From Candidatus Aenigmatarchaeota archaeon (GTDB taxonomy: Archaea; Aenigmatarchaeota; Aenigmatarchaeia; JACPZZ01), in NCBI GenBank assembly GCA_016195275.1, contig JACPZZ010000022.1, positions 1 through 40,413 on the forward strand: 40,413 nucleotides of DNA, read 5' to 3'. The notes below the pieces were generated by a model. The model was not told the DNA's origin, searched no databases, and saw nothing but the letters and a program-made list of their open reading frames with translations. This document shows positions 31,518-37,740 of this stretch, piece by piece; the first letter of the stretch is position 1, and each line of letters starts with the position of its first letter. The position numbers were made by a program, and so were the translations under genes.

Positions 31518-34184
31518 CTAAACGGCCGGCACCGTAATTTTTTCCGTGGCCCCGGAAGGCGTTTTGATCTGTATTTTCCCGCCGCACTGGCACAGCCCGG
31601 TAAGCGGCGCCGAAGAAAATATGTCGCCGCAGGAGGCGCATACAAAACCGTCAAAAACGTTGCTCTGCGCCGGCCTGGCACGCATTAGTTCCATCAGCGA
31701 AGCTTGCCTTCCTTTTCCAAGCAATTCCGATTTTGTAAACCCGAGTGCAATGAAGATACGCTCTATCGGGGGCAGCAACTGGTTTTCCACATAATAAACC
31801 GGGTCTATCTCCAATCTCTTTTCTTTTACATAATCAGGGTCTTCTGTTCTTTTTGACAGCAATTGGTTCCCTTTGATGATCACATATCCCACCCTGTCCC
31901 CCACCCCCGGAGCGTCCTGGGAATTCCTTTTCTGCATTTTTTTAACCAGCTCTATATGCGGCTGTACGCCGGCATAACTCGAAGGGCTTTTTGTTATGCT
32001 CTTGGTTATTACAAGCTTTTCTATCGGGATTTTATTTTCCGTCAGGTCTTTCATCACGCCGTTGAAATAATTCAGGGCTTCCTTCGTGTCGCCCCTTTTT
32101 AAAATTATTTCTATGGTCTTGTTCATGGTCTCGGAAACAAGCTCGCACCAGTCCCTGCGGACGGTTTCTATGCCTTTCATCTCCGTTTTTTCTTTCCACA
32201 AGCCGTTTTCCTTGACAAACTTCCAAGCCGCGTATCTTTTTTTTGTCAGTATTAGGAAGCTCTTAAAAAGTTTTTCGAACTCCATCTGCATCGCCCCCGA
32301 AAGTTCGCTGTTTATTCTGGTCATTATTTCGGTTCCTTTTTCCCAGCCTGCGTCAAGGTCTTTTTCCGGTATTTTTATCATAATCGAGTCTGTGTCGCCA
32401 TAGACCGCCTCGTAGCCGAACCTGTTTTCTACCGTATCTGTGACAGTATGTATCAAATGGCGGCCGCACGCTGTTATTGCGTTTGCTATATCCAGAATGT
32501 AAAGTTTTGCTTTTGTGTATCCTGTGTACCCGTAAAACGAATTGGAAAGCAGTTTAAGTGCAAGCTGCTTGGCGTCAAGAACTTTGCGCAGCTCCTCGTC
32601 CGTCTCGGTTTTCATTGCGCGTTTGGCTTTGGACCTCTCTTCCAAAAGGCCGCCGAGTATGTTAGGCATTATCCCTTCCTGCACGTCTTTCGCTATGAAT
32701 TTGTAACCGGCAGGTGTTTTGATTATTTCCGGGCCTTCTTCCGGCCCGTTTACAATGGTTGTGGGGCAGATGTTATAGCTTCTGAATATTGAAGGGTACA
32801 TGCTTCTGAAGTCGAGCACCACAATCAGCCCGTCGGAATGAAGGCCCACTTTCGGGGTGAGTACAAAACCTCCCTTAAGGCCCTGATCCTCTTTCTCCCG
32901 CTCCTTCTTGCTTATTTCAGAAGAATCCGGCTTGCACGGCATTACATAATCTCTTTTGTTAAATTCCCGCAAAAGCAGGTTCTCCACCCTGGTCGCTTCT
33001 CCGCCGTCCAAGCTGTCCTGTAAAAGCAGACCGCTTAGTTTGGAAAGTTCGATGTACTTGTCAAGCAGTTGTTTTTTAACGACCAGGTCAAGCGCAAGTT
33101 CTGCGTCTTTTCGTGCGTACTCGATCAGCCTCGCGATCTTATCTTTGTCGCCGCTGTTCCAAAGTTTGGATATTTCAGAGTGCGCAACATCAAGCTTTTC
33201 CTGTTTTAGCAGGATTCTTGATACGTCGGTCAGGCCGTATCTTTTGAAGGAGAAATTTTTCTTTACCAGTTGGTAGCTGTCCGCGACCACGCGCCCCGGC
33301 ACAGAAGAGCGCGCCCTGTTCTTGATTATTTCCTTGGTATACGCTTGCTTGTCGCTGCAACGGCCAATTGTTCTGGGAACCTTCAATATCTCAAGCCGCT
33401 TTAAAATAAACGGCATGTCGAAATTGTTTATGTTGAACCCGGTAATTATGTCCGGGTCGTAATCATCGGTTATTGCGTTCATTCTTGTTAACATTTCCGT
33501 TTCATCAAGGCAGCGCACCACGGTATCCGAATTTATTCCCCTGGTGGTTAGCACTATCGACTTTTGGCCGCGGTTTTCCGGGAAAAAAGACAGGCTTATG
33601 ATAATTATTTCGTCTTCCTTTGGGTCTGGCAGCCCGCCGGATTTGGAAAGGGTCTCGATGTCCACGGCCATATATTTCATTTGGGCGTTCGTGGCGGAAT
33701 CCACGGGCGATATTTTTGTAACGTTGACGGCCCTGTCGGCCTTTACCGTGTGCGTGTTGACGTCCGCGCAGTCCATATCAATCCAGCCCATCCCGCTGAT
33801 TTTATAGTCGGCCATAAATCTGTATTTAAAAAGTATATCGGCCTCAAAAACCTCCTGCGCGGCCGGGTGGGTTTTGACCGAATCCCGGAGTTCGGAAACC
33901 CTTTGTGGGTTGCGCAATGTCACCTTTATCATTTCTTTCGGTTCTCTGGAAAAACCTCTGGGATGTCTTTTGAGAACCTTTTCATATTTGATTACGTCCG
34001 GCTTGGACGAAAGAAACCGTTCAATGTCTCCGGCCCTGCCTTCTGCAGGCAAAATATAGAAATACGGCAAATATCCCCTGGCAAAACCGCAGACCGTTTT
34101 ACTATTCTCGTCTTTCCCGAATATCCTGACAACCGGCCTGTCTTCCAGAATGATGTAATCCGTGTCAAGCACTTGAATTTTCAT
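31518..34184 (-). CDS. polB: Family B DNA polymerase
   Basis: The 888-residue replicative-type polymerase has all key motifs: exonuclease I YMAVDIETLS (about 171-180), exonuclease II GFNINNFDMPF (249-259), exonuclease III EYARKDAEL (355-363), polymerase A LDFRSMYPSI (457-466), B KLLSNSFYGYTGY (544-556) and C YGDTDS (595-600). A C-terminal zinc-binding tail with CASCGDIF and CQCGGK follows near residue 850. Proofreading and synthesis should both be active. ATG 34184 is chosen; GTG 34193 is possible. It follows the DP1-like gene by 13 bases in a run that starts upstream with orc1/cdc6. Confidence 0.96.
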   Translation of the reverse strand: MKIQVLDTDYIILEDRPVVRIFGKDENSKTVCGFARGYLPYFYILPAEGRAGDIERFLSSKPDVIKYEKVLKRHPRGFSREPKEMIKVTLRNPQRVSELRDSVKTHPAAQEVFEADILFKYRFMADYKISGMGWIDMDCADVNTHTVKADRAVNVTKISPVDSATNAQMKYMAVDIETLSKSGGLPDPKEDEIIIISLSFFPENRGQKSIVLTTRGINSDTVVRCLDETEMLTRMNAITDDYDPDIITGFNINNFDMPFILKRLEILKVPRTIGRCSDKQAYTKEIIKNRARSSVPGRVVADSYQLVKKNFSFKRYGLTDVSRILLKQEKLDVAHSEISKLWNSGDKDKIARLIEYARKDAELALDLVVKKQLLDKYIELSKLSGLLLQDSLDGGEATRVENLLLREFNKRDYVMPCKPDSSEISKKEREKEDQGLKGGFVLTPKVGLHSDGLIVVLDFRSMYPSIFRSYNICPTTIVNGPEEGPEIIKTPAGYKFIAKDVQEGIMPNILGGLLEERSKAKRAMKTETDEELRKVLDAKQLALKLLSNSFYGYTGYTKAKLYILDIANAITACGRHLIHTVTDTVENRFGYEAVYGDTDSIMIKIPEKDLDAGWEKGTEIMTRINSELSGAMQMEFEKLFKSFLILTKKRYAAWKFVKENGLWKEKTEMKGIETVRRDWCELVSETMNKTIEIILKRGDTKEALNYFNGVMKDLTENKIPIEKLVITKSITKSPSSYAGVQPHIELVKKMQKRNSQDAPGVGDRVGYVIIKGNQLLSKRTEDPDYVKEKRLEIDPVYYVENQLLPPIERIFIALGFTKSELLGKGRQASLMELMRARPAQSNVFDGFVCASCGDIFSSAPLTGLCQCGGKIQIKTPSGATEKITVPAV

Positions 34185-34197
34185 AAAACCCACACTA

Positions 34198-35235
34198 TTA
34201 TCTCGCGGGCTGATTTAAAACCGTTAGGGTCGCTTCTCTTGTATGCAAGTCGATAATTACGGAACCGTCCGTTTCACCAACCGTAACGAACGTGTAGCCT
34301 TTGTAATTTGACGCGCCGGCTTTTTCGGACAGCCCGAGAAATATTATATCCGCATTCTCGTCGATGGCGTTCATGTCTTCGGTGAATACCGGTATCGTAT
34401 TCGGGCCTGACACGTAGCCCTTTTTCGAAAAAATCCTGGCCAGGTTGTCCACAGAATCTTTTATCGGTGTTTGTAAAATTTGTATTTTGTATACCACCCC
34501 GCCGAGCGTAACCGAAACCTTTGACGGTACAGCAGGTACCGCCTTTTCTTCTGCAATACCGTGCCAATAACCCAGTATCTTTATTCCTTTCTTCCCCTCT
34601 GCGGTTTCGCACAGGGAAACCGAAACGAATTCTTCCGTGCCCTGGGGATTTATTTGCCCTTCGTTTACGTGCAGATTAACAAACGCGATCTTTGCTGCCG
34701 AGCTTGTTTTTTTTACATTCTTTTTGACCGGAAGTTCCGGCATCGTAAAACTGTCGGCAAAAATTTTGCCGTTTGAAAAAAAACCGGATACGCCCACGAC
34801 GTCGTTTTCGGCGATGTCATTTGTGTTTTTGACCACGACCTCGCACTTTCCTGTAAAATCCTCCAGGGAAAAACCGCTGTCGGTTATTTCGCGCGCAAGG
34901 CCCAACACCGTGTTTTGTTGTCCTGGCCTGGCCTTGTTTATAGAAACCGGCCCGTTTCCCGTACGTCTCGTTATCGAAGGCCCGAGGGCGTGTATTTTGT
35001 TCTGGTAATAAGCCAGGAAGTCCTTTGCCGACAACTCGCCCTTTTCTTCGTTTTGGTAAACGACGTCGATGTTTCTTTTTGAGCGTATCTGCTGCAGCGC
35101 CTCCTTATTCAAAACACGCGGCTTGTCCTGTTTGGCCATCATTTTCTCGTAATCCTCTGGCGTAATATCGTCCGCAGCCTCCGGAGACACCATTACCCCG
35201 GCTGATAAGAACTTCCTCAGAACGGCCCGGTCCAT
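34198..35235 (-). CDS. Reduced PolD small-subunit (DP1) homologue
   Basis: The 345-residue protein matches PolD small subunits in an N-terminal helical region (MDRAVLRKFLSAGVMVSPEA), in an OB-fold region at about 85-170 that ends in FFSNGKIFADSFTMPELPV, and at the very C terminus (YTFVTVGETDGSVIIDLHTRE). The DP1 phosphoesterase domain between them is shortened and its metal motifs are gone: the place of the usual DIHVGS reads FVNLHVNEG (185-193), and no GNHD or GHxH is seen. Normal DP1 proteins are roughly 450-650 residues. A structural or loading role without exonuclease activity is inferred. It lies between orc1/cdc6 (8-base gap) and polB. Confidence 0.75.
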   Translation of the reverse strand: MDRAVLRKFLSAGVMVSPEAADDITPEDYEKMMAKQDKPRVLNKEALQQIRSKRNIDVVYQNEEKGELSAKDFLAYYQNKIHALGPSITRRTGNGPVSINKARPGQQNTVLGLAREITDSGFSLEDFTGKCEVVVKNTNDIAENDVVGVSGFFSNGKIFADSFTMPELPVKKNVKKTSSAAKIAFVNLHVNEGQINPQGTEEFVSVSLCETAEGKKGIKILGYWHGIAEEKAVPAVPSKVSVTLGGVVYKIQILQTPIKDSVDNLARIFSKKGYVSGPNTIPVFTEDMNAIDENADIIFLGLSEKAGASNYKGYTFVTVGETDGSVIIDLHTREATLTVLNQPAR

Positions 35236-35243
35236 AAAAACCC

Positions 35244-36443
35244 CTACTCAAAATAAAAATCTTTTTTGAGCATCTCTTTTATGCCTTCCTGTGTATGCTT
35301 CGACACCATGAGACTGATCTGTTTCGTTCTTCCGTGCCTTCCCTTAGATGTGGTGCGTACGGAAAGTATTCCGAGCATACCCAGCTCAGACATCAGGTCC
35401 GACGCTCTTCTGGGCCCCAGAGTTTCAAGCCCGCGTTTTTTGCAGACCTCTTTGTAGCGTTCGTACATTTGTCCCGTAGTCGTGGCCGCTTCGTTTGTTA
35501 CCGCAGCCCACAATATGGCCTGTGACTGTCGTGGCTGTGTGCGGACCGTTTCCAATATTCTGTCAACGTTGATTTTTTCCTGCGCTTTGTCAACGTGGCT
35601 TTCGTCAAGGTGTTGCTCTCCGTTGCGTTCCGCGATCTCGCCGGCGACGCGCAACAAATCCAGCGCCCTTCGGGCATCCCCGTGTTCCTGCGCCGCGAGC
35701 GCAGCGCACTTTTGTATAACACCTTCCTTGACAGAACCGGCCACAAACGACATCCTGGCCCGCTCGCTCAGTATGTCTCTGAGTTCAAGGGCGTTGTACG
35801 GTGGAAACATTATCTCCTCTTCATTGAGCGACGATTTGACCCTTGGGTCAAGGTTTTCCGAAAAGGAGAGGTCGTTTGTGACGCCTATCAAAGTTAGTTT
35901 TGCCTGGGCCAGGTCTTGGTTGATCCTTGTCAAATTATAAAGTATATTATCACCACCCTTGGATACCAGTGCGTCTATCTCATCAAGAACCAGGAGCACG
36001 TTCTGTTTCTGCGAATCAAGGCTTTCATAGAAAATTTCATAAAGCCTGTTTGTTGGCAGACCCGTGGCCGGGACGTTGTAACCGAACTCTTTACAAAGCT
36101 GTGCAAGAACCCTGTACTCTGTGTCCGCGATCTTTTTCATTTTACAGTTTATGAAAACGGCCTTGATTTGGACAGAGTTCTCGGCCGCGGTTTTGGCAAG
36201 TTCGCCTACCACATGCCTGACGCACAACGTTTTGCCGGTTCCGGTCTTCCCATAAACAAAAGTGTTGGACGGCTTTTCATTCCTAAGGCAGGGCGCAAGT
36301 ATCGACGCCACCACTTCCATCTGGCTGTCCCGGTGTGTTATGGTAGACGGATCGTAAGATGGTGAAAGCGGGTCTTTTGACAAAAAAAGGTTGCCGTTCT
36401 TTAGGTAGCCGGAAAAGATCTTCTGCAAAGAAGTTTGTGCCAT
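35244..36443 (-). CDS. orc1/cdc6: Orc1/Cdc6 origin-binding AAA+ protein
   Basis: The 399-residue protein has Walker A VYGKTGTGKTLCV (residues 63-75), Walker B NVLLVLDEIDALV (148-160), sensor 1 LIGVTNDLSF, the LDPRVKSSL segment with the initiator-specific Arg, HGDARRALDLLRVAGEIAE (sensor 2) and a C-terminal winged helix. It binds origin recognition boxes and recruits the MCM helicase. ATG 36443 gives the usual compact N-terminus; ATG 36461 would add six residues. A 28-bp palindrome covers the start region, and a strong ORB sequence lies about 60 bp upstream. Confidence 0.95.
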   Translation of the reverse strand: MAQTSLQKIFSGYLKNGNLFLSKDPLSPSYDPSTITHRDSQMEVVASILAPCLRNEKPSNTFVYGKTGTGKTLCVRHVVGELAKTAAENSVQIKAVFINCKMKKIADTEYRVLAQLCKEFGYNVPATGLPTNRLYEIFYESLDSQKQNVLLVLDEIDALVSKGGDNILYNLTRINQDLAQAKLTLIGVTNDLSFSENLDPRVKSSLNEEEIMFPPYNALELRDILSERARMSFVAGSVKEGVIQKCAALAAQEHGDARRALDLLRVAGEIAERNGEQHLDESHVDKAQEKINVDRILETVRTQPRQSQAILWAAVTNEAATTTGQMYERYKEVCKKRGLETLGPRRASDLMSELGMLGILSVRTTSKGRHGRTKQISLMVSKHTQEGIKEMLKKDFYFE

Positions 36444-36447
36444 AAAC

Positions 36448-36475
36448 AACCAACATTTCATTTGAATTGTTGGTT
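36448..36475. promoter_or_regulatory. 28-bp near-perfect palindrome at the orc1/cdc6 start
   Basis: The arms AACCAACA (36448-36455) and TGTTGGTT (36468-36475) enclose TTCA-TT-TGAA, so only one base pair per arm is broken. A TATA-like CTTATTAAC on the minus strand lies just upstream (about 36475-36483). The position, between promoter and start, is that of an operator for a dimeric repressor or for autoregulation. Confidence 0.55.
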
Positions 36476-36986: not shown

Positions 36987-37007
36987 CTGCAGGCGAAACA
37001 GCGGGGT
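36987..37007 (+). promoter_or_regulatory. Weak ORB-like element, opposite orientation
   Basis: CTGCAGGCGAAACAGCGGGG then T matches an ORB such as TTCCAGTGGAAACAAAGGGG at about 14 of 21 positions, including GAAAC and the G string. It points the other way from the strong ORB, on the far side of the AT-rich tract. Confidence 0.3.
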
Positions 37008-37016
37008 CACTGTTTC
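36995..37016 (-). repeat. Inverted repeat at the metallophosphoesterase stop
   Basis: GAAACAG (36995-37001) and CTGTTTC (37010-37016) are perfect complements with an 8-base loop. They span the stop codon of the metallophosphoesterase and overlap the ORB-like element. A transcript-end hairpin or protein site are both possible. Confidence 0.4.
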
Positions 37017-37687
37017 AGGTTTAGTACGCGCGCTTCGGTCTTTTCCCCGACTACCAGAAACCCGGCCCAACCATCGGACACCGGCCCGGGATACAATAGC
37101 TTTGTCGGCCCCAACTCGTCAACGCCCACGGCCTCGTGTATGTGCGCGCTTATGGCGGCGTCCGGTTTCTTTCTTAGTATAAAATCTCTGATGGCCTGGG
37201 AACCCACGTGGGCGCCGGTGCTTATCCGGTCCATTTTTGTGTTTTTGGCTGGGTTGTGCGTTATCATAACCTTGTGTTTTGTGTTCGCAACCTCGTTGAA
37301 AGCCCGCTCAAGGCCCTGTGCCGTCTCGTTTTCTGAAGGCTCAAACGGCGTGGAGAACGGGGTCTTCGCCCCCCCAAAACCAAAAAAACCAACCCCGCCT
37401 ATTTCTCTGCCCTTTCCATGTATGTTGGTTTTGTAGTCGTCAAAAATTTTGTGAATTTCTGGCGGGTCGTGGTTGCCAGGAACTGTAAGAACAGGTTTTC
37501 CTAACGCAAGCAATTCATCCAAGATAATGTGCGTCGTGTCTTCGCGCGAAAACCCGACAAGGGACAAACCTATATCTGTGAAATCCCCGGGGCAAACAAC
37601 CACATCCACGTCAGGCCCCGATTTTTTCAAAACCGTTGAAAGCGATTCAAAATCCCCGTGCACGTCCGCGACTACAAGCACTTTCAT
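37007..37687 (-). CDS. Calcineurin-like metallophosphoesterase
   Basis: The 226-residue protein starts MKVLVVADVHGDFESL and shows the full metal-binding series: DVHG (motif 1), CPGDFTDIG (motif 2), VPGNHDPPE (motif 3), VMITHNPA and SAHIHEAVG (motifs 4-5). It is similar to Icc/YfcE-like archaeal phosphoesterases with broad substrates. ATG 37687 is supported by a TATA box 27 bp upstream, and the longer frame is not. No link to the truncated DP1 is proven, but an intact phosphoesterase two genes away from a DP1 that lost its own domain is notable. Confidence 0.88.
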   Translation of the reverse strand: MKVLVVADVHGDFESLSTVLKKSGPDVDVVVCPGDFTDIGLSLVGFSREDTTHIILDELLALGKPVLTVPGNHDPPEIHKIFDDYKTNIHGKGREIGGVGFFGFGGAKTPFSTPFEPSENETAQGLERAFNEVANTKHKVMITHNPAKNTKMDRISTGAHVGSQAIRDFILRKKPDAAISAHIHEAVGVDELGPTKLLYPGPVSDGWAGFLVVGEKTEARVLNLKQ

Positions 37688-37710
37688 AAACCAGATTCTC
37701 ACCAACAAGC

Positions 37711-37719
37711 TAATAAAAC
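37711..37719. promoter_or_regulatory. Single TATA element midway in a 53-bp divergent spacer
   Basis: TAATAAAAC is centred 26 bp before the plus-strand ATG 37741 and 27-28 bp before the minus-strand ATG 37687. The spacer is 53 bp, the same as at 14538-14590. Confidence 0.5.
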
Positions 37720-37740
37720 CCAATCAAAGATAGTTGTTTT

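Follow-up and report, generated by a model that had tools for sequence, protein, structure and literature searches.

We report that a gene lying between orc1/cdc6 and polB in a 40,413-nucleotide stretch of Candidatus Aenigmatarchaeota DNA (hereafter the window, meaning the whole stretch analysed) belongs by descent to the family of the PolD small subunit, DP1, with homology over the OB and phosphoesterase regions and a DP1 fold. The protein has lost its active-site motifs, and with a probability of roughly 85% we propose that DP1 has here turned into a non-catalytic accessory, a eukaryote-type B-subunit of the neighbouring PolB, to which we infer that it physically binds. The initial annotation had suggested that it could be a structural factor, in the manner of eukaryotic B-subunits, and might serve PolB or another partner; a structural subunit serving PolB is the best-supported reading because DP2 is missing, the reduction is shared among relatives, the fold is retained without a metal site, and PolB carries a docking finger of the DP2 type. 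The features on which the analysis bears are as follows.

31518..34193, minus strand: polB, a frame of 891 residues with a GTG start and an ATG three codons inside
31536..31652, minus strand: C-terminal zinc finger of PolB (C852, C855, C868, C870), homologous to DP2 zinc finger III
34198..35235, minus strand: dp1, a reduced, motif-less PolD small subunit of 345 residues, B-subunit-like
34210..34698, minus strand: what is left of the phosphoesterase domain in dp1 (residues about 180-342), without the active-site residues
34321..34341, minus strand: motif V relic of dp1, FLGLSEK
34663..34683, minus strand: motif I relic of dp1, FVNLHVN
34738..34926, minus strand: OB-fold part of dp1, residues about 104-166, from model strands (E107-115 to E157-164) and DP1 OB-region alignments
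35244..36461, minus strand: orc1/cdc6, the conserved neighbour upstream of dp1
37007..37723, minus strand: stand-alone calcineurin-like phosphoesterase with all motifs intact, a neighbour of orc1-dp1 in seven families

A reduced DP1 between orc1/cdc6 and polB

The dp1 reading frame is intact and starts with ATG, and the coordinates of the open reading frames agree with its placement between orc1/cdc6 and polB, all on the minus strand. Its proposed identity as a PolD small subunit was borne out by comparison with that family. The NCBIfam model for the PolD small subunit matched residues 23-205, the N-terminal half of the protein (E 5.8e-16), and BLASTP aligned it to an intact DP1 of the same class with 24% identity (E 7e-14), a weak second stretch covering the C terminus; a search of the window DP1 against Pfam gave no significant match. 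A profile built from 24 relatives retrieved the solved DP1 chains (6knb) with an E of 1e-34 over profile positions 54-306, as well as human Pol epsilon subunit 2 (E 5.7e-6). The matches to DP1 obtained with BLASTP, profile and Foldseek rule out an unrelated OB-fold protein.

Alignments and model agree that the N-terminal region, the OB fold and the C-terminal strands are kept within the 345 residues. The metal-binding motifs are gone, as had been noticed from the sequence: the intact DP1s of family f6 (450-512 residues) carry SDLHVGS, AGD, PGNHD, YHG and SGHLH, and the window protein reads FVNLHVN where SDLHVGS is expected and FLGLSEK where HSGHLH is expected, with no GD, GNHD or catalytic histidine. 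Aligned with intact relatives, motifs II to IV have no counterpart. Motifs I and V are separated by 105 residues, against 182 in the intact f6 relatives, and at most one of the eight active-site positions matches, against 8/8 in those relatives. The earlier description of lost phosphoesterase motifs is right, with the refinement that the domain itself is eroded and not gone: residues from about 180 to 340 can still be aligned with it and take the form of a remnant in the model. Judged from its sequence, with five motifs lost and the DP2 partner missing from the genome, the window DP1 is not expected to be a functional proofreading exonuclease subunit.

An AlphaFold2 model of the protein, built from the 24-sequence alignment, reached a pLDDT of 85.7 and a pTM of 0.79. 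The model retains the N-terminal helices, the OB fold, where pLDDT is mostly above 90, and a beta-rich phosphoesterase remnant. Its best Foldseek matches were DP1 of P. abyssi (E 4e-13) together with the B-subunits of Pol delta, epsilon and alpha, with moderate TM-scores of 0.53-0.57 by query length. Modelled alone, DP1 therefore retains the fold common to DP1 and the B-subunits while its sequence is without a metal site, and the predicted structure combines an inactive phosphoesterase with an OB fold, as in eukaryote-type B-subunits.

The neighbouring PolB and a linked phosphoesterase

PolB is represented by a single match in each of the five genomes of the genus. In the window, its exonuclease residues (D178, E180, N254, D259, Y359 and D363) and polymerase residues (D461, D600 and D602) are intact, and these residues, together with the four finger cysteines, are invariant in 27 PolBs. 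Foldseek placed the PolB model (pLDDT 88.7) closest to human and yeast Pol delta, the structural match expected for the Delta-like clade. In an HHalign comparison with f6 DP2, the PolB finger aligned to the C-terminal finger of DP2 (probability 96.9, E 1.5e-10); the DP2 helical bundle beyond this finger is missing from PolB. In P. abyssi PolD, DP2 zinc finger III (Zn-III) docks in the groove between the OB and phosphoesterase domains of DP1 (Raia 2019, PMC6355029).

In P. abyssi PolD, an RR pair in the finger touches DP1; the fingers of the window's genus have other residues at this place (FSSAPL and similar sequences). The orc1, dp1 and polB genes are co-directional and tightly spaced in most families; in f4, f10 and f16, polB lies away from dp1, orc1 and dp1 are still together, and the RR pair is mostly lost. 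These three families group together in the EF-2 tree and, being related, do not count as independent cases. The DP1-PolB interface may accordingly have changed or weakened in the window's genus and in f4, f10 and f16. Loss of the RR pair in both settings, and the persistence of orc1-dp1 where polB has moved off, are what one would expect if the reduced DP1 were a structural factor for something other than PolB (Orc1/Cdc6, for example, or part of a helicase or primase), the operon with polB being only inherited synteny. We consider this unlikely: the four finger cysteines are invariant in 27/27 aligned PolBs, members of f4, f10 and f16 included, and the dp1 and polB genes stay close together in the window's genus and in most families.

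Two further features of PolB were observed. Just before the zinc finger, the segment GRQASLMELM (residues about 829-838, window positions 31680-31710) occupies the position of the archaeal PolB PCNA-binding motif; its Q830 is invariant in 27 PolBs, but the window's genus does not have the aromatic residue normally present there. At five loci (L057, L088, L127, L128 and L129), the PolB frames span 1309-1390 residues instead of about 890, probably owing to inteins in the polymerase domain.

The stand-alone phosphoesterase keeps company with orc1-dp1 rather than with polB. Of the 49 genomes in which it and dp1 are on one contig, 48, from seven families, have the two within 3.4 kb of each other. 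Its position and strand vary between families: in f10 it immediately follows dp1, in the same orientation, and in f4 and f16 it is divergent from orc1-dp1. Close copies, defined as matches with an E below 1e-50, occur in f1, f4, f7, f8, f10, f14, f16, f17 and f19 and in one f13 genome. This linkage and the full set of motifs raise the idea that this neighbouring enzyme now makes up in trans for the nuclease that DP1 has lost, a reading that we regard as improbable. The exonuclease residues are already intact in PolB, f13 has one unlinked copy or only distant ones, and the literature searched yields no nuclease activity for this group of phosphoesterases. Moreover, f3, f11 and f18 have no close copy despite equally eroded DP1s, so the conserved placement could be inherited synteny, the more so as the carrier families may be related. 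That the phosphoesterase acts in trans with a DP1-PolB assembly, which would make a split replicase nuclease of a previously undescribed kind, is quite improbable.

DP2 and the erosion of DP1 across the phylum

The initial annotation had asked for a search for DP2 in the genome. None was found in the window's genome or in the four other genomes of the genus, and the window's genome likewise yielded no second DP1 and no DP1 with an intact phosphoesterase. Across the phylum, DP2 exceeded the cut-off in 10 of 156 genomes, all of family f6, and the f6 DP1s examined are those that keep the full set of nuclease motifs. The remaining matches to the DP2 model fall almost all at DP2 positions about 1010-1060, inside PolB-sized open reading frames next to a short DP1.

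Comparison with related archaea, proposed at the outset, showed that the reduction of DP1 is common to nearly the whole phylum. Active-site positions are lost in a graded manner among relatives, from 8, 7, 6 and 4 down to 0 of 8. The DP1s of G018 and G053 keep 7/8 and lack only the GNHD histidine (the G018 type reads PGNMD), which appears, by sequence comparison, to be the residue changed in the solved exo-deficient variant 6hmf (the H451 variant), whose sequence reads PGNAD where 6knb has PGNHD. Those of G005, G041, G046 and G047 keep 6/8, and the others range from 4 to 0. Because these intermediates lie between the intact f6 DP1s and the window DP1, the erosion is gradual and shared and is not an assembly artefact.

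A DP1 homologue was found in 147 of the 156 genomes, and none of the 39 most complete lacks it. This breadth of open homologues, together with the retained OB fold and C-terminal region and the confident model, makes it very unlikely that dp1 is a decaying gene without function, a reading that draws on how quickly it diverges: its identity is only about 40% among members of the genus, whereas that of PolB is 78-80%. That DP2 is present but was missed, DP1 still working in PolD, is scarcely credible: the window's genome is 83% complete, but DP2 is absent from 5/5 genomes of the genus and from every one of the 146 genomes outside the ten of f6, nearly all of which have a DP1 homologue.

The DP2 of f6 groups with a Pacearchaeota DP2 in our tree (support 100/99), and a single clade of f6 and short DP1s was not rejected (AU p 0.47), which leaves re-acquisition of PolD by f6 unsupported and suggests that PolD was probably retained in this family. 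In the EF-2 tree, which rests on a single gene, f6 stands next to f2, f9 and f12 (support 94/91), and the least eroded DP1s occur among these families; this placement would mean either more than one loss of DP2 or a period in which both polymerases were present.

Several unusual frames came to light in these surveys. The EF-2 gene of the window's own genome (L202, G000:C1:17190-20954) has a frame of 1270 residues, against 730-750 in most relatives, with an insert of about 530 residues after model position about 35, in the P-loop region, that is probably an intein. One f6 genome (L065, G022) has a DP1 frame of more than 740 residues, in which a large insert separates motif I from motif V, and its DP2 is likewise encoded in an enlarged frame; inteins in both PolD subunits are possible. 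A metagenome-assembled genome labelled Odinarchaeota (L124, G171) encodes a PolB 46% identical to that of the window, reflecting misbinning or transfer; no canonical DP1 or DP2 was found in this bin.

A B-subunit-like DP1 and its parallels

We propose that PolB took over the role of DP2 together with its docking finger. PolB would supply both synthesis and proofreading, the latter having shifted to its own exonuclease, and its C-terminal zinc finger, derived from the lost DP2, would dock on the reduced DP1, in the groove between its OB and phosphoesterase domains, much as the CTDs of Pol alpha, delta and epsilon do on the eukaryotic B-subunits. Freed from proofreading, the phosphoesterase domain would have lost its active-site residues and about 75 core residues, and DP1 would stay on as a structural subunit that may, for instance, stabilise PolB or tether it to other fork proteins. 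Binding of RPA was also considered as a reason for the retention of DP1 and was set aside, the solved RPA-PolD contact being on DP2 and not on DP1.

Like DP1 in the Pyrococcus PolD structures (6hms, 6t8h and 8ppt), the window protein has an N-terminal region, an OB fold and C-terminal phosphoesterase strands, and its proposed partner bears a homologous zinc finger. Unlike it, the window DP1 has no active-site motifs and a shorter phosphoesterase core, PolB stands in place of the DP2 catalytic core, and the finger comes without the helical bundle. The eukaryotic B-subunits (Pol delta, 6tny; Pol alpha, 4y97; Pol epsilon, 5vbn) resemble it in joining an OB fold to an inactive phosphoesterase, and their partners, like the one proposed here, are B-family polymerases whose C terminus carries a metal finger. 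By contrast with these subunits, the remnant is much smaller, PolB has a single zinc motif where the eukaryotic polymerases have two metal sites, and the association is one that we infer.

The closest parallel comes from the same phylum. Kazlauskas et al. 2020 (PMC7544198) reported that most Aenigmarchaeota genomes are without DP2, that Aenigmarchaeota have a PolB, group B6-aenigma1, in which one zinc motif resembles that of DP2, and that their DP1 is inactive; the same evolutionary model was drawn there. Compared by that published description, the window shares with B6-aenigma1 the phylum, the loss of DP2, the PolB with a single zinc motif and the inactive DP1; the kind is thus already known since that work, and the window DP1 is a further, strongly reduced case. 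A literature search beyond that paper found nothing on Aenigmatarchaeota PolB or DP1. New here are the census of 156 genomes, the graded series of DP1 erosion, the loss of the RR pair in the genus and the linked stand-alone phosphoesterase; the last three and the reduction in size go beyond the main-text account of B6-aenigma1.

Taken together, the window's genome presents a eukaryote-like polymerase arrangement in an archaeon. Within the phylum, f6 with its PolD represents the starting state, intermediates have nuclease sites that are nearly complete, and the window is among the end states, so that actual genes are at hand for studying the order in which the changes came.
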